Notes: generated by a model not told the origin, from the sequence alone. Counted from the first letter of the stretch, positions 26,839 through 37,851 are shown. The stretch is 45,295 bases of DNA from Elusimicrobiota bacterium (GCA_016234365.1 JACRER010000029.1:1-45295); one strand, 5' to 3'. Program-made: numbers and translations.

Positions 26839-28494
26839 GTGTTCAGCTACGCTGTCTCAATTGATCTGCTGGAATCAGCGTGCCTTATAAGATTTAAGGC
26901 CGGTTCAACCGCTTTGTTTCAATGGGCTTTTATACTGATCCTGTTCACGCAGCCTGTCCGCGCTTTTCCTGTTCCCGCCGGGAGGGACGTGCGCATAAGC
27001 TGGAACAATTCCCTGCGCTGCAACCGCGCGGTAAGAATGCAGAAACGCGACCCTCTCATCGCCAGCAACGCGGCCTATGACCAGGGCGACGCGCTTTTTG
27101 ACCGCTACGCCGCCATCAGCAGCCGGCTCGACCTTCTCAGCGAGTTCGACCTGAGCTACCGCGAACGGTACGGGCTGCGCGTCACCGGCGCCGCCTGGTA
27201 TGACACGGCGTACGGGACCCATGGCCGCGACAACCCCGCCGCGCTGGGAGCGGGCGCGGCGCCTTCGAGCTATGTTGACGGCAGGTTCACCCCCTACGTC
27301 AGGCACTATTACAAAGGGCCCTGGGGCGAACTGCTTGACGCCTTTGTCTTTGGCTCGTTCGACGCCGGGCAGACCGTCTGGAGCGTTAAAGCGGGGCGGC
27401 ACGCCCTGGTCTGGGGCGAATCCCTGTTCGGCAGCGCGCACGCGGTCTCCTACTCCCAGGCGCCCAGCGACGGCCTGAAGGCGCTGGCCAGCCCGGGCGC
27501 GTCGGCCAAAGAAACCGCGCTGCCGCTGAACCAGGTGTCGTTGCAGACGCAGCTCAGCCCCGAACTTTCCGTTGCGGCCCAACTGGGGTTCGAATGGCGC
27601 CCCAACCGCATCGCCGAAGGCGGAACCTTTTTCGGAGCGGGCGACGGCGTAAATGAAGGCCCCGATGTGAACCGCCTCTCCCCGGTAAAAGGCGGCAGCG
27701 GCGACGCCGGGCTCGGACTCTACCTGCGGCCGGCCTGGCTGGACGGCATGCTGGGCTTCTACGTGCGCCGCTTCGACGATAAAGGCGGCTGGCTGGCCCA
27801 GGCGGCCGGCGGGGGGCTGACGCGCGCGGTCTACGCCAGGGATATAGGGCTGGTGGGCGTGACCCTTTCCAAGCTCATCGGCGGCGCTTCCGTAGGCGCC
27901 GAGTTCTCCCATCGCAGCGGGGACCCGCTGGTCAGCGACGCCGCGGCTTCCGCCGGGGCGGCCGGCGGTTATAAAGGGGCAAGGGGGGATACCTGGCACG
28001 GGCTCCTCAACGCCGTGAAAAGTTTCGGCCCCGGCCCGCTCTCTGATACGTCCGTGCTTTCAGCGGAAGTCGCCTGGTCCGGGCTGCGCCGCGTAACGCA
28101 TGAACCGCAACTCTACAGGGCCAGGGGCTATCTCGCTTCCTGCGATACAAGTTCCAACCTGCGGGGCTGCGCGGATAAAGAATTTATGAGCCTGGCTTTG
28201 TCCTTTGTGCCGACCTGGCTGCAGGTGTATCCCGGTGTGGACCTGGACATGCCCCTGTTCTTTTCCAGGAACTTCGGCAACGCCCCTTCGAACGGGGGAG
28301 GCAGCGACGGGTTCACCGCCTATAAGGCCGGGTTTACGGCCAAGGCCTACGCCCGCCATCAATTCGACCTGGCCTATACCGGCTACTGGCAGAAAATCGG
28401 GAAAGCCCCGGATTCCGTATTCGGCTCCAGGGTTCTTGGCGCGCCCTACAAGGACAAGGGCTGGCTGTCATTTACCTATCAGTTCGCTTTCTGA
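26839..28494 (+). CDS. DUF1302 family outer-membrane protein
   Basis: This 551-residue protein starts at GTG 26839 after a GGGGGG site, with a signal peptide after a longer than usual n-region (QWAFILILFTQPVRA). The mature protein is a predicted beta barrel with alternating hydrophobic strands and the C-terminal signal SFTYQFAF. DUF1302 motifs include the start of the mature part and KAGRHALVWGESLF. DUF1302 proteins usually pair with DUF1329 proteins, and are known mostly from proteobacteria in hydrophobic-compound or lipid transport clusters (from memory). The pair is intact here, but the RND exporter that often accompanies it is absent. Confidence 0.85.
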   Translation: MFSYAVSIDLLESACLIRFKAGSTALFQWAFILILFTQPVRAFPVPAGRDVRISWNNSLRCNRAVRMQKRDPLIASNAAYDQGDALFDRYAAISSRLDLLSEFDLSYRERYGLRVTGAAWYDTAYGTHGRDNPAALGAGAAPSSYVDGRFTPYVRHYYKGPWGELLDAFVFGSFDAGQTVWSVKAGRHALVWGESLFGSAHAVSYSQAPSDGLKALASPGASAKETALPLNQVSLQTQLSPELSVAAQLGFEWRPNRIAEGGTFFGAGDGVNEGPDVNRLSPVKGGSGDAGLGLYLRPAWLDGMLGFYVRRFDDKGGWLAQAAGGGLTRAVYARDIGLVGVTLSKLIGGASVGAEFSHRSGDPLVSDAAASAGAAGGYKGARGDTWHGLLNAVKSFGPGPLSDTSVLSAEVAWSGLRRVTHEPQLYRARGYLASCDTSSNLRGCADKEFMSLALSFVPTWLQVYPGVDLDMPLFFSRNFGNAPSNGGGSDGFTAYKAGFTAKAYARHQFDLAYTGYWQKIGKAPDSVFGSRVLGAPYKDKGWLSFTYQFAF

Positions 28495-28509
28495 AGAGGG
28501 GGAAAACCT

Positions 28510-29892
28510 GTGACCATTATGAAATACGCAACGCCGCTGCTGTTAGCGCTGTTCCTCGCCGGCATTACGCGCGCGGCCGGTCCCGGCGGGTTGCCGCAAG
28601 CGCTGCGGCCCGGCGGCGCGCTTACGCCTTTCGGCGCCGAAAAAGCCGCCAACAGCGAGGGCAGCATCCCGGCTTACACCGGCGGCCTGCAGGCCGCCGA
28701 CATACCCGCGGATTTCCAGAAAGACTCCGGACGCTGGACCGATCCCTTCGCCGGGGAAAAGCCGCTTTTCTCCATCACCGCAAAGAACATGGGCGAGTAT
28801 GTCGGCAGACTCAGCGAAACCAGCAAGGCTTTATTGCGGCAGTACCCCTCATACCGCATGGACGTCTATCCCAGCCACCGAAGCGTCGCTTATCCCGACC
28901 GGGTGCTGGAGAATATCCTGAAGAACGCCGTGAACGCCCGGCTGGCCAGGAACGGGCTGGCGCTTGAAGGCGCGGCAGGCGGCATCCCGTTCCCCGTCCC
29001 GAAGAACGGCAACGAGGCGATGTGGAACCATATGCTGGTCTACAACGGCTATCCGGCCGAATACCGCGGGCGCAACTGGTACGTGGACAGCAGGGGCCGC
29101 GCCGTCAATACCGGGGACCTGAGGGTATCGCTGGAGAGCAAATACTACACCCTGAAAGCGGGACCCGAAGAACTGAAGACGAGGGGGAATTCTTTTTTCG
29201 AGGCGGCTTACAACTTCACCGCTCCGCCCAACGCGGCGGGCAACGCCGCCTATTCCGTGGATACCCTGGACCCGGTGGCCCAGCCGCGCCGCGCCTGGAG
29301 CTATTCTGCCGCCTCCCGCCGCACGCGGCTTTCGCCGGACTTTAGCTACGACACGCCGATAGCCTCGCAAGGCGGAATAACCAATTACGACGAAGGATAT
29401 TTATTCCTGGGCAGGCTGGACATGTTCGACTTTAAGCTGCTCGGCAAGCGGGAGATGTATATCCCCTATAACGATTACAAACTGGTGTTCCAGGCCAAGT
29501 CTTCGCAGGTCCTGACCCCGGACCACCTGAGCCCGGACTTCGTAAGGTGGGAACTGCACCGCGTCTGGGTGGTGGAGGCCGCCCGTAAACCCGGAAAAAA
29601 ACACAAGCTGTCCCGCAGGGTATTCTACCTGGACGAGGACTGGAGCGGGGCCGGCATGAGCGACGCCTATAGCCGCAACGACCAGCTCAGCAAGGGCATG
29701 TTCATGGCCGAAACCCCGCTCTACGACGCGCAGATGCCCCTGGCCAGGTGCTACTGGGCCTACGATCTGCTGGACCACAGGTACACCCTTATCCAGCATT
29801 TCGGCGACCCGGGGATGGGCTACCGGCTTAAGCCCGGCGGGTTCCCGCCCCAGACCTTTACGCCGGAAGCGCTGCCGAACCGGGGGCGTTGA
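28510..29892 (+). CDS. DUF1329 family periplasmic protein
   Basis: This 460-residue protein has a signal peptide (ATPLLLALFLAGITRAAG) and DUF1329 signatures: LTPFGAEKAANSEGSIPAYTG near the N-terminus, YPSHRSVAYPD and the C-terminal GMYMAE-like region KGMFMAETPLYD. DUF1329 proteins are predicted to share the LolB-like barrel fold and to carry hydrophobic ligands. The GTG at 28510 sits 7 nt after GAGGGGG; ATG 28519 is an alternative. It is 15 nt downstream of the DUF1302 gene, and the sensor kinase starts 3 nt after it. Confidence 0.87.
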   Translation: MTIMKYATPLLLALFLAGITRAAGPGGLPQALRPGGALTPFGAEKAANSEGSIPAYTGGLQAADIPADFQKDSGRWTDPFAGEKPLFSITAKNMGEYVGRLSETSKALLRQYPSYRMDVYPSHRSVAYPDRVLENILKNAVNARLARNGLALEGAAGGIPFPVPKNGNEAMWNHMLVYNGYPAEYRGRNWYVDSRGRAVNTGDLRVSLESKYYTLKAGPEELKTRGNSFFEAAYNFTAPPNAAGNAAYSVDTLDPVAQPRRAWSYSAASRRTRLSPDFSYDTPIASQGGITNYDEGYLFLGRLDMFDFKLLGKREMYIPYNDYKLVFQAKSSQVLTPDHLSPDFVRWELHRVWVVEAARKPGKKHKLSRRVFYLDEDWSGAGMSDAYSRNDQLSKGMFMAETPLYDAQMPLARCYWAYDLLDHRYTLIQHFGDPGMGYRLKPGGFPPQTFTPEALPNRGR

Positions 29893-32242: not shown

Positions 32243-33949
32243 ATGAAAAACGAGATCAGCGTAAGGATCACCGGCGAAGCCGGGCAGGGGATAATCTCCG
32301 CCGGCATGATGCTGGCCCGCCTGTATAAGGACAGCGGGCGGCATGTTTTCGCCATACAGGATTACATGTCCCGCATCCGCGGGGGCAATAACTTCATCCA
32401 GGTGCGCGCTGCGGTAAGCCCGGTAGCCGCGCCGGTGGAACGGGCCGATATCATAGTGGCCCTGGACAGAGAAGCGGTGGACGCCGGCAAGGCCGCCCTG
32501 GCTCCCGGCGGCGTACTGCTGCTCGACGCGGATAAATTCGGCGTAAAGGACCTGGGGAACGGCTGGCTCAATGCGCCCGTCTACGCCCTGGCCCAGGAAG
32601 CCGGCGGCCCCATTTACGCCAATTCCGTCGCGCTGGGCATTCTGGCGGCGCTGACCTGCGGCAACTTCGACGACGCCGCAAAAGCGGTGGCCCGGGAGTT
32701 CGCGGCCAAAGGCGGTGAAGCGGCCGCCGCTAACGCGCAAGCCGCCCGCAAGGGCTACGAGTACGCCTCCCAAAATATCAAGACCGCCGCCTTCAGGCTG
32801 GCCGCCGCCCCGCACGCGCGCCGCCTGCTGCTGGCCGGCAACGAGGCGCTGGCGCTCGGGGCCATTTCCGCCGGCTGCAAGTTCTACACCGCCTACCCGA
32901 TGTCCCCTTCCACCGGCATTATGAATACCGTGGCCGACTATGCGGCGCGCTACGGGATAATAGTGGAACAGGCCGAGGACGAAATAGCCGCCGTCAATAT
33001 GGCGGCGGGCGCCTCGTTCGCCGGGGTGAGGGCCATGACCGCCAGTTCCGGCGGAGGCTTTGCGCTGATGTGCGAGGGTCTCAGCCTGGCCGCCATGACG
33101 GAAATCCCGCTGGTAATAGCGCTGGTAATGCGCCCGGGGCCCGCCACCGGCTTTCCCACCCGCACCGCCCAGGAGGACCTGGAGTTCGCGCTGCACGCCG
33201 GGCACGGGGAATTCGCGCGCGCCGTTTATACGCCGGGCTCGCCGGAGGAATGCTTCCTGGCCGCCAGGCGCGCCTTCAACACCGCCGAGCGCTTCCAGGT
33301 CCCGGCGCTTATCCTGTCGGACCAGTACCTGGCCGAGTCGTTCACCAATACCGCGCTTCCCGATACGGCGGGCGAGCCGCCCGACAGGGGCCTCATCCTT
33401 GATAACGGGGCTGCGCCGGGCACGCGCCGCTACGAGTACAGCGCCGACGGGGTCTCGCCCCGCGCCATCCCGGGCAGGTCGGAGGCCCTGGCCGTAGCGG
33501 ACAGCGACGAGCACGGCCCGGAAGGCCATATCACCGAGCTGGCGGAGACCCGGATAAAGATGACGGAGAAGCGCCTGAAACTGAAATTGGCCGGGCTGGC
33601 GAAGGAAATCCTGCCGCCCACGGTGATCAATCCCGGGGCCGGCACCATGCTCTGCGGCTTCGGCTCGACTTTGGGAGTAATGAGGGAGGCCTGCGCCGCG
33701 GCGAACGGGACCGGCTTCATACATTACCCGCAGATCTGGCCCTTTCCGGCGGCCGCGACGCTGGCCGCGCTGAAAGGGGCCGGGCGCGTACTTACGGTGG
33801 AGAACAACGCCACCGGGCAGCTGGCCCGGCTGCTGCTGCGTGAAACCGGCTTTAAGCCGCACGGCTCGGTGTTGAAATACGACGGGCGGCCTTTCGCGCT
33901 GGACGAGGTGGCGGCCGCGCTGGCGGGCTTCGGCGCGCCAGGCCGCTGA
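32243..33949 (+). CDS. korA: 2-oxoacid:acceptor oxidoreductase, subunit alpha
   Basis: This 568-residue subunit has an N-terminal gamma-type domain (about 1-180, ITGEAGQGIISAG) fused to the pyrimidine-binding alpha domain (from about 190, with SAGCKFYTAYPMSPSTG) and a C-terminal domain. With the beta subunit it decarboxylates a 2-oxoacid to acyl-CoA and reduces ferredoxin. The substrate (2-oxoglutarate, pyruvate or branched-chain) cannot be fixed from sequence. ATG 32243 follows AGGGGGGG. The korB gene lies downstream, separated by the CarF-like gene. Confidence 0.9.
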   Translation: MKNEISVRITGEAGQGIISAGMMLARLYKDSGRHVFAIQDYMSRIRGGNNFIQVRAAVSPVAAPVERADIIVALDREAVDAGKAALAPGGVLLLDADKFGVKDLGNGWLNAPVYALAQEAGGPIYANSVALGILAALTCGNFDDAAKAVAREFAAKGGEAAAANAQAARKGYEYASQNIKTAAFRLAAAPHARRLLLAGNEALALGAISAGCKFYTAYPMSPSTGIMNTVADYAARYGIIVEQAEDEIAAVNMAAGASFAGVRAMTASSGGGFALMCEGLSLAAMTEIPLVIALVMRPGPATGFPTRTAQEDLEFALHAGHGEFARAVYTPGSPEECFLAARRAFNTAERFQVPALILSDQYLAESFTNTALPDTAGEPPDRGLILDNGAAPGTRRYEYSADGVSPRAIPGRSEALAVADSDEHGPEGHITELAETRIKMTEKRLKLKLAGLAKEILPPTVINPGAGTMLCGFGSTLGVMREACAAANGTGFIHYPQIWPFPAAATLAALKGAGRVLTVENNATGQLARLLLRETGFKPHGSVLKYDGRPFALDEVAAALAGFGAPGR

Positions 33950-33967
33950 AAAAGGTGTAAAACCGCC

Positions 33968-34699
33968 ATGGACCTGGAACTTAAACAGCGGCAATTCAAC
34001 TCCGCGATGGCCCTTTACGCGGAACGCCGGCGTTACGCGGTCTTCGGCAAACTGGTGGCGGCGGGCAACGTGTCGCTGCAGGCCTTCCTGCTGTGGCGCG
34101 CGGCCGCGGTTTCCCTGGGGTTCTGGGGACGGCTGGCGGCGCTGGCGGCGGCCTGGCTGCTGGCCGACTTCGTGAACGGACTGGTGCACATGCACACGGA
34201 CAGCATGGACGACTATGAGTCGATTGGCGGGCCGCTTATAGCCAATTTTCACCTGCATCACAAGAGGCCGCGTTATACGGACAGTCCCCTGCCGCTGGTG
34301 TATTTTAACGAGAGCGCTTCCAAGGTGTGGCTGCTCCCCTGCCTTTGCGCGCTGGCCTGGCTGGCCGGCCGGCCAGGGGTGAACCCCTGGCTGCTTTGCG
34401 CGCTGATTTACGCCGGGGTCCTGTCCTCCGTGGCGGAAGTCTCGCATTACCTGGCGCACAATTCAGTATCCCCGGCCGCGGCGGCGCTGGCGCGCGCGGG
34501 CCTGCTGCTCGACAAGCGGCGCCACGCCAGGCACCATCTCCAGGACAACGTGAGCTACGCTTTCCTCAACGCCGCCACCGACCCGCTGGTGGATTTTATA
34601 GCGGCTAAATTTTATGCTGGTTATAAGAACGGCACCGACCTGCACTACGCCGCCTATACCGCGCCCAGCGCGGACAGGGACGCCGGGGCCGGCGGCTGA
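33968..34699 (+). CDS. CarF/PEDS1-type plasmanylethanolamine desaturase homologue
   Basis: This 243-residue membrane protein has three or four hydrophobic segments and the histidine motifs of the CarF/TMEM189 family: DFVNGLVHMHTD (about 67-78), FHLHHKRP (94-101), EVSHYLAHN (157-165) and RRHARHH (184-190). Characterised members introduce the vinyl-ether double bond of plasmalogens in an O2-dependent diiron reaction. Residues here match the motif spacing in the human and Myxococcus enzymes as I recall them. It sits between korA and korB, 18 nt after korA, so it is in the same transcript. Confidence 0.78.
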   Translation: MDLELKQRQFNSAMALYAERRRYAVFGKLVAAGNVSLQAFLLWRAAAVSLGFWGRLAALAAAWLLADFVNGLVHMHTDSMDDYESIGGPLIANFHLHHKRPRYTDSPLPLVYFNESASKVWLLPCLCALAWLAGRPGVNPWLLCALIYAGVLSSVAEVSHYLAHNSVSPAAAALARAGLLLDKRRHARHHLQDNVSYAFLNAATDPLVDFIAAKFYAGYKNGTDLHYAAYTAPSADRDAGAGG

Positions 34700-34789
34700 A
34701 GCTGGCTTGCGCGTGCAACAACCAGGCGACATGAACAAGACCGCCGGCAGTGGCGTTCTGCTGACGCCCGCGGGAAGGGGATAGCTAAT

Positions 34790-35638
34790 ATGGAACCGAG
34801 GACTTTCGACTCCGCCGACCCCGTGGCCTGGTGCCCCGGCTGCGGCAACTTCGGCATACAGGCCGCGCTGAAAGCCGCGCTGGCCGCGCTGGGCAAAAAA
34901 CCGCGGGAACTGCTGCTGGTTTCGGGCATAGGGCAGGCCGCTAAAATGCCGCATTATATCAAGGCCAATTTTTTCAACGGCCTGCACGGCCGGGCGCTGC
35001 CCGCCGCCGCGGCGGCCAAGATCGCCAACCGCGCCCTGACCGTAATAGTGACCACCGGCGACGGTGATTGCTACGGCGAGGGCGGCAATCACTTCATCCA
35101 CAATATCAGGCGCAACGTGGACATGACCGTAATAGTGCACGACAACCAGATCTACGGCCTCACCAGGGGCCAGGCTTCTCCCACTTCGGAGCCGGGCATG
35201 AAGACCAAGATCCAGCCCGGCGGGGTGATACTGGCCCCGTTCCCGCCGCTGGAGACCGCGCTGGCGCTGGGCTGCGGCTTCGTGGCCCGCGGCTACGCGG
35301 CCGAAAAGGAACATTTGACGGAACTTATCCTGGCCGGCATAAGGCACAAGGGCTTTTCGCTCATAGACGTTCTCCAGCCCTGCGTATCGTTCAATAAGCT
35401 GAACACTTATAACTGGTACGCCGGGCGGGTCTACAAGGTGGGGCCGGAACACGACGCGGCGGACAGGGCCGCCGCCATGACTTTGGCGGCCCTGAGGGAA
35501 CGCCTGCCCATAGGCGTGGTCTACAGCGGCGCAAAACCCTCCTACGAGGAGCTCAGCGGCCTGGACGGCCTGCCGCCGCTGGCGGACGCGCAGGTATCCG
35601 GCATAGACATTGCCCCGGTCCTTACGGACTTTCAATAA
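34790..35638 (+). CDS. korB: 2-oxoacid:acceptor oxidoreductase, subunit beta
   Basis: This 282-residue subunit binds thiamine diphosphate (GDGD at about 90-93) and should hold one 4Fe-4S cluster. Two cysteines are in WCPGCGN (15 and 18) and one in LQPCVSF (198). The fourth ligand expected in SGIGC is Gln49 (SGIGQAAKMPHY), and Ala59 stands where some relatives have a nearby Cys. ATG 34790 follows GGAAGGGG. It pairs with korA to form a two-subunit enzyme, since no separate delta (ferredoxin) subunit gene is seen. Confidence 0.9.
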   Translation: MEPRTFDSADPVAWCPGCGNFGIQAALKAALAALGKKPRELLLVSGIGQAAKMPHYIKANFFNGLHGRALPAAAAAKIANRALTVIVTTGDGDCYGEGGNHFIHNIRRNVDMTVIVHDNQIYGLTRGQASPTSEPGMKTKIQPGGVILAPFPPLETALALGCGFVARGYAAEKEHLTELILAGIRHKGFSLIDVLQPCVSFNKLNTYNWYAGRVYKVGPEHDAADRAAAMTLAALRERLPIGVVYSGAKPSYEELSGLDGLPPLADAQVSGIDIAPVLTDFQ

Positions 35639-35700: not shown

Positions 35701-35718
35701 TTGGGTTAGGGGGAAGTG

Positions 35719-36408
35719 ATGAAAAAGGACGTGATCGCGCTCGCCGCAGCGGCGGGGTTCCTGTACGCCGTTACCGCGTGCGCCCAGCAGACCGAGAACA
35801 AGGGGGGAAATATGCAGCAAACACTACCAACATACAAAGCAATGGCCTATCCGGACCTTTCCGGAATGCCCGGCTTCAGCGGGCAGTTGATGGCCAGCCA
35901 CCTGAAACTCTACCAGGGCTACGTGAACAACACGAATGCCCTGGCGGAGAAACTGGCGGCCCTGCTTGCCGAAGGCAAAGAGAAGACTCCGGAGTACGCG
36001 GAGCTCAAGCGCCGCTTCGGCTGGGAGTTCAACGGCATGCGCCTGCACGAGCTGTATTTCGGCAACCTGGGCGGGGCCGGCGCGCCCAGGCAGAGCAGCC
36101 GGGCATACAAGACCATCCAGGACGACTTCGGGAGTTTCGAGGCCTGGAGAAAGGACTTCACGGCCACCGGTCTTATGCGCGGCGTCGGCTGGACGGTCCT
36201 TTACCGGGACAACACCTCCGGCAGGCTCTTCAACGCCTGGATCACCGAGCACGACGGAGGGCACCTGGCCGGCTGCACTCCGCTGCTTGTACTGGACGTA
36301 TTCGAGCACGCCTACCTGACCGACTACCAATTGGACAGGGCCAAGTATATCGAAGCCTTTTTCATGGTGGTAAACTGGGACGAGGTGGACAAGCGCTGGC
36401 CGAAGTGA
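35719..36408 (+). CDS. Fe/Mn superoxide dismutase with lipoprotein signal
   Basis: The enzyme turns superoxide into H2O2 and O2. The four metal ligands are His in MASHLKLY, His in RLHELYFGN, Asp in LDVFEHAYLTDY and His in the same segment. The long form (229 residues) has a lipoprotein signal ending in a lipobox (AVTAC), so it should be a periplasm-facing lipoprotein. A second start at ATG 35812, preceded by AAGGGGGG at 4-nt spacing, would give a 198-residue cytosolic form of normal SodB length. Use of each start is unproven. It is the first gene of an oxygen-defence run. Confidence 0.9.
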   Translation: MKKDVIALAAAAGFLYAVTACAQQTENKGGNMQQTLPTYKAMAYPDLSGMPGFSGQLMASHLKLYQGYVNNTNALAEKLAALLAEGKEKTPEYAELKRRFGWEFNGMRLHELYFGNLGGAGAPRQSSRAYKTIQDDFGSFEAWRKDFTATGLMRGVGWTVLYRDNTSGRLFNAWITEHDGGHLAGCTPLLVLDVFEHAYLTDYQLDRAKYIEAFFMVVNWDEVDKRWPK

Positions 36409-36507: not shown

Positions 36508-36678
36508 ATGAAACAGGTAAAACATGCGGCTAAAAAAACCGCCGGGAAAGCGTCCGCTAAATACGGCTGCGGCGTCTGCGGCACCGTTATAGAAGTCGAC
36601 CCGTGCGGCTGTGGCTGTGATTCCGCGGCCGCGCTGGTCTGCTGCGGTAAAAAGATGGCCAGGAAACGCCCCGCTTGA
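36508..36678 (+). CDS. Desulforedoxin-like small protein
   Basis: This 56-residue protein has a Lys-rich N-terminus and a CxxC...CCG core: YGCGVCGTVIEV (Cys21, Cys24) and LVCCGKKM (Cys45, Cys46). These match the four Fe ligands of desulforedoxin or the N-terminal domain of desulfoferrodoxin. Three extra cysteines (33, 35, 37) are unusual. It may transfer electrons or bind iron. ATG 36508 has AAAGGGGG upstream. It lies between sod and bfr. Confidence 0.7.
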   Translation: MKQVKHAAKKTAGKASAKYGCGVCGTVIEVDPCGCGCDSAAALVCCGKKMARKRPA

Positions 36679-36774: not shown

Positions 36775-36799
36775 TAGCTATCAAGGAGAGGTGGCACAA

Positions 36800-37270
36800 A
36801 TGAAAGGGAATCCTGAACTGTTAAAAACGCTGAACTCGCTGCTGGCCGACGAACTTACGGCCATAAACCAGTACATGGTGCATTCCGAAATGTGCGCGAA
36901 CTGGGGCTACCAGAAGCTGCATAAGCACTTCGAGAAAAGGGCCATAACGGAGATGAAGCACGCGGAAAAGCTGATAGGGCGCATCCTCTTCCTGGAGGGC
37001 ACCCCCACCGTAAGCGACCTCAGGAAAATAATGATCGGCGCCGAAGTGCCCAAGCAGCTCGCCAACGACCATGCCGCGGAAGCCGGGGCCATCAAGGCTT
37101 ACAACGAGGCCCTGATCCAGGCCGGAGAGGTTAAAGACCACGCCACCCGCGACTTCCTGCAGGAGATCCTCAACGACGAGGACGGCCACATAGACGAAAT
37201 AGAGGGACTTCAGGACCAGGTAAGCCAGATGACCCTGCCGGTGTTCCTGGCCACCCAGGTAAAGGAATAG
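36800..37270 (+). CDS. bfr: Bacterioferritin
   Basis: This 156-residue protein is close to E. coli Bfr in length and pattern (LLADELTAINQYMVHSEM). The ferroxidase ligands are present: Glu in DEL, Glu and His in EMKHAEK, Glu in EAGAIKAY and Glu/His in NDEDGHID. The heme-binding Met (EM) is also present. It forms a 24-mer that stores iron. ATG 36800 has AAGGAGAG upstream; an alternative GTG lies at 36791. It follows the long structured element. Confidence 0.95.
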   Translation: MKGNPELLKTLNSLLADELTAINQYMVHSEMCANWGYQKLHKHFEKRAITEMKHAEKLIGRILFLEGTPTVSDLRKIMIGAEVPKQLANDHAAEAGAIKAYNEALIQAGEVKDHATRDFLQEILNDEDGHIDEIEGLQDQVSQMTLPVFLATQVKE

Positions 37271-37338: not shown

Positions 37339-37851
37339 ATGAACGTATTCGAGTTCGCCATCAAGATGGAGCTGGCCGGCCAGGAGTTCTACGAGAAGCT
37401 GGCCCGGGGCGTTCCCCACGCCGGGCTGAAGAGCATTTTCTCACAGCTTGCCGCTGATGAACAAAAGCATTACAAGATCTTTTCAGCTCTGAAAGCCCAG
37501 CACCGGGAGGCGGCAATGGCGGACACTCCCGCCCTGGAACAGGCAAAAACCATATTCCGCGACCTGCTCGCGCAGAAGGACCCCGCCGGGCCGGTAAAAG
37601 GCGACCTGGAAGCCTACCGCTACGCCATAAAGCTGGAGGCGGACAGCTTCCGGCTTTACGAGGAAGCGGCGGCGAAAGAGAAAGATCAGGGCGTAAAAGG
37701 GCTCCTGCTGCGCATTGCGGGCGAGGAGCACAAACACTTCGAGATCCTGCAGAACATCTACGACTTCGTCAATGCCCCCAACCAGTATCTTGCCTGGGGC
37801 GAGTTCAGCAATCTCGGCGAATTCCGTCAGTTCGGCCGCGACACAGATTGA
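37339..37851 (+). CDS. Rubrerythrin-like ferritin-family protein
   Basis: This 170-residue four-helix protein has paired ExxH motifs: EFYEKLARG with ADEQKHYKIF in the first half and SFRLYEEAAAKE with AGEEHKHFEI in the second. They match the diiron site of rubrerythrin-type peroxidases. It lacks the rubredoxin domain at the C-terminus. It is probably a peroxide- or iron-handling protein beside bfr. It starts after AGGAGG. Confidence 0.85.
   Translation: MNVFEFAIKMELAGQEFYEKLARGVPHAGLKSIFSQLAADEQKHYKIFSALKAQHREAAMADTPALEQAKTIFRDLLAQKDPAGPVKGDLEAYRYAIKLEADSFRLYEEAAAKEKDQGVKGLLLRIAGEEHKHFEILQNIYDFVNAPNQYLAWGEFSNLGEFRQFGRDTD

Follow-up and report, generated by a model that had tools for sequence, protein, structure and literature searches.

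The gene lying between korA and korB in this Elusimicrobiota genome encodes a membrane enzyme of the di-iron lipid desaturase/hydroxylase type and is not a CarF. It occupies a korAB-sod-bfr locus into which it was inserted between the two oxidoreductase subunit genes, an event confined to a single genome. The locus was analysed within the window, by which we mean the whole 45 kb stretch of DNA (contig C6) from a 2.72 Mb genome that is 96.5 % complete. We give roughly even weight to the view that the enzyme desaturates acyl lipids with the help of O2, is expressed together with an operon for oxygen exposure and possibly receives its electrons from KorAB.

Identity of the gene between korA and korB

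Profile matches placed korA, a PF10520 gene and korB head to tail on the plus strand with a superoxide dismutase (SOD) gene next, as the first-pass annotation had described (Table 1). The korA product matched PF01855 (1.9e-52) and PF01558 (2.4e-33) and scored 601 bits against TIGR03710, for which the cut-off is 483.

Table 1. Coordinates of the features in the window and of AhpF-like genes at other loci
Feature	Position	Strand	Basis or description
korA	32243..33949	+	fused gamma-alpha subunit, 2-oxoacid:acceptor oxidoreductase, TIGR03710 subfamily
PF10520 membrane lipid desaturase, non-CarF clade, 243 aa	33968..34699	+	PF10520, residues, tree, AlphaFold2 model
desaturase/korB junction, 90 bases	34700..34789	+	sequence comparison
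korB, TPP-binding beta subunit	34790..35638	+	TIGR02177, 330 bits vs cut-off 262
Fe/Mn SOD, lipoprotein-like signal peptide, lipobox VTAC	35716..36408	+	PF02777, 1.3e-27; signal judged from sequence
56-aa Cys-rich ORF, CxxC...CCGxxM pattern	36508..36678	+	sequence only
bacterioferritin	36791..37270	+	TIGR00754, 155 bits vs cut-off 126
rubrerythrin-like ferritin-fold protein	37339..37851	+	PF02915, 9.1e-13
AhpF-like protein	L014:10299-11972; L016:380-2053; also L083, L084	- (L014, L016)

The middle gene had been called a CarF-type desaturase with intact His motifs, and a PF10520 profile search had been named as a possible refutation. The protein matched PF10520 (5.2e-13, 49.9 bits against a gathering threshold of 26.4) and the His motifs were indeed intact, with equivalents of H96, D100, F118, H121, H122, H187, H191, H215, H218 and H219 (mouse PEDS1 numbering) present in the alignment, all eight essential His among them. 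The eight His, the Asp and the Phe were kept in all 76 aligned PF10520 rows, which were drawn from genome surveys with some rows sharing one genome. Residue numbering was carried over by way of a PEDS1 fragment. Its spacing fits all positions quoted for PEDS1, in which the eight His, Asp100 and Phe118 were found to be essential by mutagenesis (PMC8960569).

The CarF-type label itself was not sustained. CarF function requires a further, ninth His (H113 in M. xanthus, H131 in mouse), and plant and alphaproteobacterial homologues without it were unable to replace CarF (PMC9131029). At this position the window desaturase has Val and every row of its clade has Val or Met; within the 76-row alignment the ninth His was present only in five CarF-type rows (L125-L128 and L136). 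Scored against NF045946, the CarF/PEDS1 equivalog model, the desaturase reached 21.5 bits with a cut-off of 500, while CarF-type proteins from the same surveys reached 201-276 bits; since even these fall short of so strict a cut-off, what counts in this comparison is the tenfold difference. A tree set the 46 rows of the window's clade apart from the CarF-type rows, with 6.1 changes/site on the separating branch and support of 100/100; a branch of this length leaves the exact root unsafe, but the clade is distinct all the same. Identity with CarF/PEDS1 was ruled out by the missing ninth His, the low equivalog score and the separate clade. Judged by alignment and tree, the protein belongs to a PF10520 clade of its own, neither CarF/PEDS1 nor plant FAD4, and this clade is apparently undescribed so far.

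An AlphaFold2 model of the desaturase had a mean pLDDT of 84.6. Its best PDB match was the fatty-acid hydroxylase Scs7p (4zr1), with a Z score of 8.1 over about 185 residues at 10 % identity, and the next unrelated fold followed at Z 4.7. The structural realignment took only Foldseek's own candidates, so the absence of stearoyl-CoA desaturase from this list is no evidence. Foldseek alone gave no significant match with the model, and searching PDB sequences with the desaturase returned nothing. A plasmid search returned one distant desaturase homologue, from Legionella lytica (40 %).

Insertion into a korAB-sod-bfr locus and distribution of the clade

The nested order was unique to the window genome. 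Close KorB homologues (82-100 % identity) were found in 13 genus members, and in the 12 other genus operons korA and korB abutted or nearly so with no gene between them. These 12 contiguous operons refute a conserved korA-carF-korB operon, the arrangement that the first-pass annotation had proposed to look for in relatives, and its refuting condition of a gene order that is not conserved there largely applies to the exact nesting. Most relatives' desaturases lay elsewhere; in the genus, four other carriers (G006, G019, G025 and G027) had the gene away from korAB. SOD followed korB in three relatives (G021, G005 and G026), with bacterioferritin coming next in G021, and the leader upstream of korA was very similar between the window and G021. 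The contiguous korAB genes of the relatives, their SOD/bacterioferritin order and the shared leader are the grounds on which we read this part of the window as a korAB-sod-bfr locus that has received the desaturase by insertion. Assembly artefact is an unlikely explanation because korA, korB, sod and bfr were all closest to G021 (85, 89, 87 and 88 % identity), the contig continues on both sides of the site, and third-position GC was even over korA, the desaturase, korB and sod (0.81-0.84). The junction ends in GCGGGAAGGGGATAGCTAATATG, which by eye is like the korA 3' end and korB ribosome site of the relatives (GCGCTGGAAAGGGGGAACTGAGATG); this stretch, resembling the ancestral korA end, may have been left behind where the desaturase gene entered. 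In G012 (L087:2632-4166) the same operon was present in broken form, suggesting that it is being lost from that genome.

The desaturase was carried by 6 of 32 genomes in the genus, by 8/341 Elusimicrobiota and by 24/141 Geobacterales, and other members of the clade came from Nitrospirota, Bdellovibrionota and further Desulfobacterota. Phyla were mixed in places in the tree, with an Elusimicrobiota protein (G340) grouping with Nitrospirota and Desulfobacterota rows. The patchy occurrence marks an accessory gene, and the mixing of phyla is consistent with horizontal transfer. CarF homologues have been described as limited to myxobacteria, Alphaproteobacteria and a small number of Leptospira (PMC9131029). 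We also considered a general link of the clade to oxidative-stress genes and rejected it, as such genes were not seen in Geobacterales neighbourhoods and appeared only in some Elusimicrobiota; in G025 the desaturase lay near rubrerythrin and SOD orthologues without KorAB.

The SOD of the window is probably located outside the cytoplasm, as indicated by its lipoprotein-like signal (VTAC), and so placed it would not shield KorAB directly. The signal thus suggests that a lineage of anaerobes has a SOD acting outside the cytoplasm, and orthologues lie behind korB in several relatives. The 56-aa ORF had no Pfam match; it resembles desulforedoxin-type FeS4 proteins and may be a small electron carrier encoded within the cluster. 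A search for heme-copper oxidase (COX1) found none in the genome, so that exposure to O2 may be rare, which is a point against an O2-dependent role for the desaturase. Adjoining genes for DUF1302 and DUF1329 proteins (26839-29892) lie upstream of a histidine kinase and a response regulator.

Recurrent linkage to KorAB and the state of its cluster site

Desaturase and KorAB genes were also found together elsewhere. G028 carries KorA-KorB-desaturase on one contig (L014) and KorA-KorB-AhpF-like-desaturase on another (L016), this second copy being cut off by the contig end, and in a deltaproteobacterium (L030) the KorA, KorB and desaturase genes have touching or overlapping ends. The AhpF-like protein, a protein disulfide oxidoreductase fused to thioredoxin reductase, was seen beside or near KorAB in G020, G027 and G028. 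Compared with the window, L030 showed 43 % identity in KorA and 58 % in the desaturase. These unequal identities spoke against a joint transfer of desaturase and KorAB between Elusimicrobiota and deltaproteobacteria, as did the close homologues of the L030 KorB in G358 and G352 (84-91 %), which are not beside desaturases there. Gene order and identities thus indicate that the pairing arose at least twice independently, and this recurrence hints at a shared electron supply or a shared oxygen response. With 3-12 favourable slots per 3000 genes, both numbers being assumed, and 46 loci when that of the window is set aside, a rough Poisson estimate gave a chance of 0.001-0.015 for at least two KorAB adjacencies. 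Among genus members, 5/13 genomes with window-type KorAB carried the desaturase as compared to 1/19 without it (p = 0.03, ignoring relatedness). KorAB was absent beside the gene in 43 of the 47 clade loci, some of which have short flanks only. The functional link between desaturase and KorAB that the first-pass annotation had drawn from the nesting is favoured by the independent recurrence elsewhere; the nested order itself is that of one genome.

The KorAB of the window has the alpha-beta architecture and lacks an internal ferredoxin domain, and both subunits scored above their subfamily cut-offs. In KorB, GIGQ (GIGQAAK) replaces GIGC, and the other three putative cluster Cys are kept as compared to 5b46. 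The motif table showed GIGQAAK to be common to the window KorB, all its close relatives and L030, GIGCSSR to occur in more distant KorBs of other genus members, and the S. tokodaii enzymes to have GIGC. We take the Cys of the GIGC position to be a ligand of the [4Fe-4S] cluster, under an assignment of four Cys ligands, and by this count the set in the window KorB is incomplete, with one Cys lost. The CXGC pair has been described as cluster Cys in KorB, and the S. tokodaii enzyme requires its cluster for oxidative decarboxylation, while the non-oxidative reaction does not depend on it (PMC5020499). A KorB of the GIGQ type may not reduce ferredoxin, and the loss of a conserved cluster Cys therefore counts against a model in which KorAB supplies the electrons. 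Alpha-beta oxidoreductases that likewise lack this domain are described as relatively O2-tolerant (PMC5020499), which weakens the earlier premise that the desaturase sits within a normally oxygen-sensitive enzyme. The GIGQ type of KorB (L047-L060, L030) is accessory in the genus, and a second KorB-like protein of the window genome was located at G000:C40.

Proposed function, alternatives and known systems

Desaturases of the di-iron fold need O2 and two electrons. For the window enzyme we infer the substrate, the electron donor and the co-regulation. The gene, which would encode an O2-dependent, di-iron, integral membrane desaturase, moved in between the two subunit genes of an accessory KorAB operon and, judging by order and spacing, would be co-transcribed with KorAB and the oxygen-defence genes. 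Most likely it would add a double bond to an ordinary acyl phospholipid once the anaerobe meets oxygen, drawing its electrons from ferredoxin as desaturases of chloroplasts reportedly do, and KorAB may refill the ferredoxin pool. A ferredoxin-fed acyl-lipid desaturase expressed alongside oxygen-defence genes is the most economical reading because chloroplast FADs are reported to use reduced ferredoxin as donor (PMC8375268) and FAD4, a relative within PF10520, is made more active by the peroxiredoxin PRXQ (PMC12456178). KorAB is a possible source of the electrons. The more elaborate version of this proposal, in which a third PF10520 clade is joined to an O2-tolerant GIGQ KorAB so that 2-oxoacids provide the electrons and membranes are remodelled on oxygen without NADPH or cytochrome b5, we regard as rather doubtful.

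A mobile accessory desaturase might instead have landed in korAB by chance, its nesting having no functional meaning. The patchy carriage in the genus, the Geobacterales and the Elusimicrobiota, neighbours that differ nearly everywhere and a nesting seen in a single genome are all in keeping with such a neutral passenger, and we give this account a substantial but clearly smaller share of our confidence, as the independent KorAB linkages in G028 and L030 exceed the rough chance model and the reading frames are intact with operon-like spacing. It is improbable that the enzyme is a lipid hydroxylase that uses the same di-iron fold to add an OH to a lipid acyl chain. The scaffold is common to desaturases and hydroxylases and, among solved structures, the fatty-acid 2-hydroxylase Scs7p matches best, but to our knowledge all characterised PF10520 members are desaturases.

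A plasmalogen desaturase, whose vinyl-ether lipids would protect the cell or KorAB from oxygen, is favoured by the Pfam family and the eight-His/Asp/Phe set that the window protein shares with PEDS1. We nevertheless consider it very unlikely, since the clade as a whole lacks the ninth His, the equivalog score is low and homologues without this His did not replace CarF (PMC9131029). Plasmalogen genes elsewhere in the genome, which the first-pass annotation had suggested looking for, did not turn up in the families searched (PF09989 and FAD-oxidase_C): PF09989, the anaerobic plasmalogen synthase type, was absent from the window genome and the genus members checked, and the sole FAD-oxidase_C protein in the genome was GlcD-like rather than AGPS. 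The literature search found nothing relevant on KorAB with CarF or on Geobacter with plasmalogen.

An accessory and distinct clade of CarF's family occurs in largely anaerobic groups, and its genes are easily mistaken for those of plasmalogen desaturases. Checking the ninth His lets annotators stop labelling genes of this clade as such. If the recurrent KorAB link is functional, a membrane desaturase would receive electrons driven by 2-oxoacids, and anaerobes could alter their lipids with trace oxygen.

Among known systems, CarF/PEDS1 (TMEM189), the plasmanylethanolamine desaturase modelled by NF045946, shares with the window enzyme PF10520, the eight His, the Asp100/Phe118 equivalents and a membrane-integral nature. 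It differs in its ninth His, where the window's clade has Val or Met, in the equivalog score and in its clade, and no ether-lipid pathway was found in the window genome in the families searched. Plant FAD4, the 16:1 delta-3-trans phosphatidylglycerol desaturase, also shares PF10520 and the eight His without the ninth; in further parallel to the proposed role, it acts on an ester-linked acyl lipid, ferredoxin is the reported donor of chloroplast FADs and PRXQ enhances its activity. It differs in its plastid context and at the ninth-His position, which is Arg in the FAD4 fragment compared and Val/Met in the window's clade. The alpha-beta 2-oxoacid:ferredoxin oxidoreductases of Sulfolobus tokodaii (5b46, 5b48) have the same fused gamma-alpha and beta subunits and no internal ferredoxin domain, and window KorB matched 5b46_B with an E value of 2e-63, yet it has GIGQ rather than GIGC and has lost one conserved Cys near the cluster. 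Scs7p is alike in fold to the predicted model of the desaturase over the aligned 185 or so residues (Z 8.1), but it is a hydroxylase and only 10 % identical.
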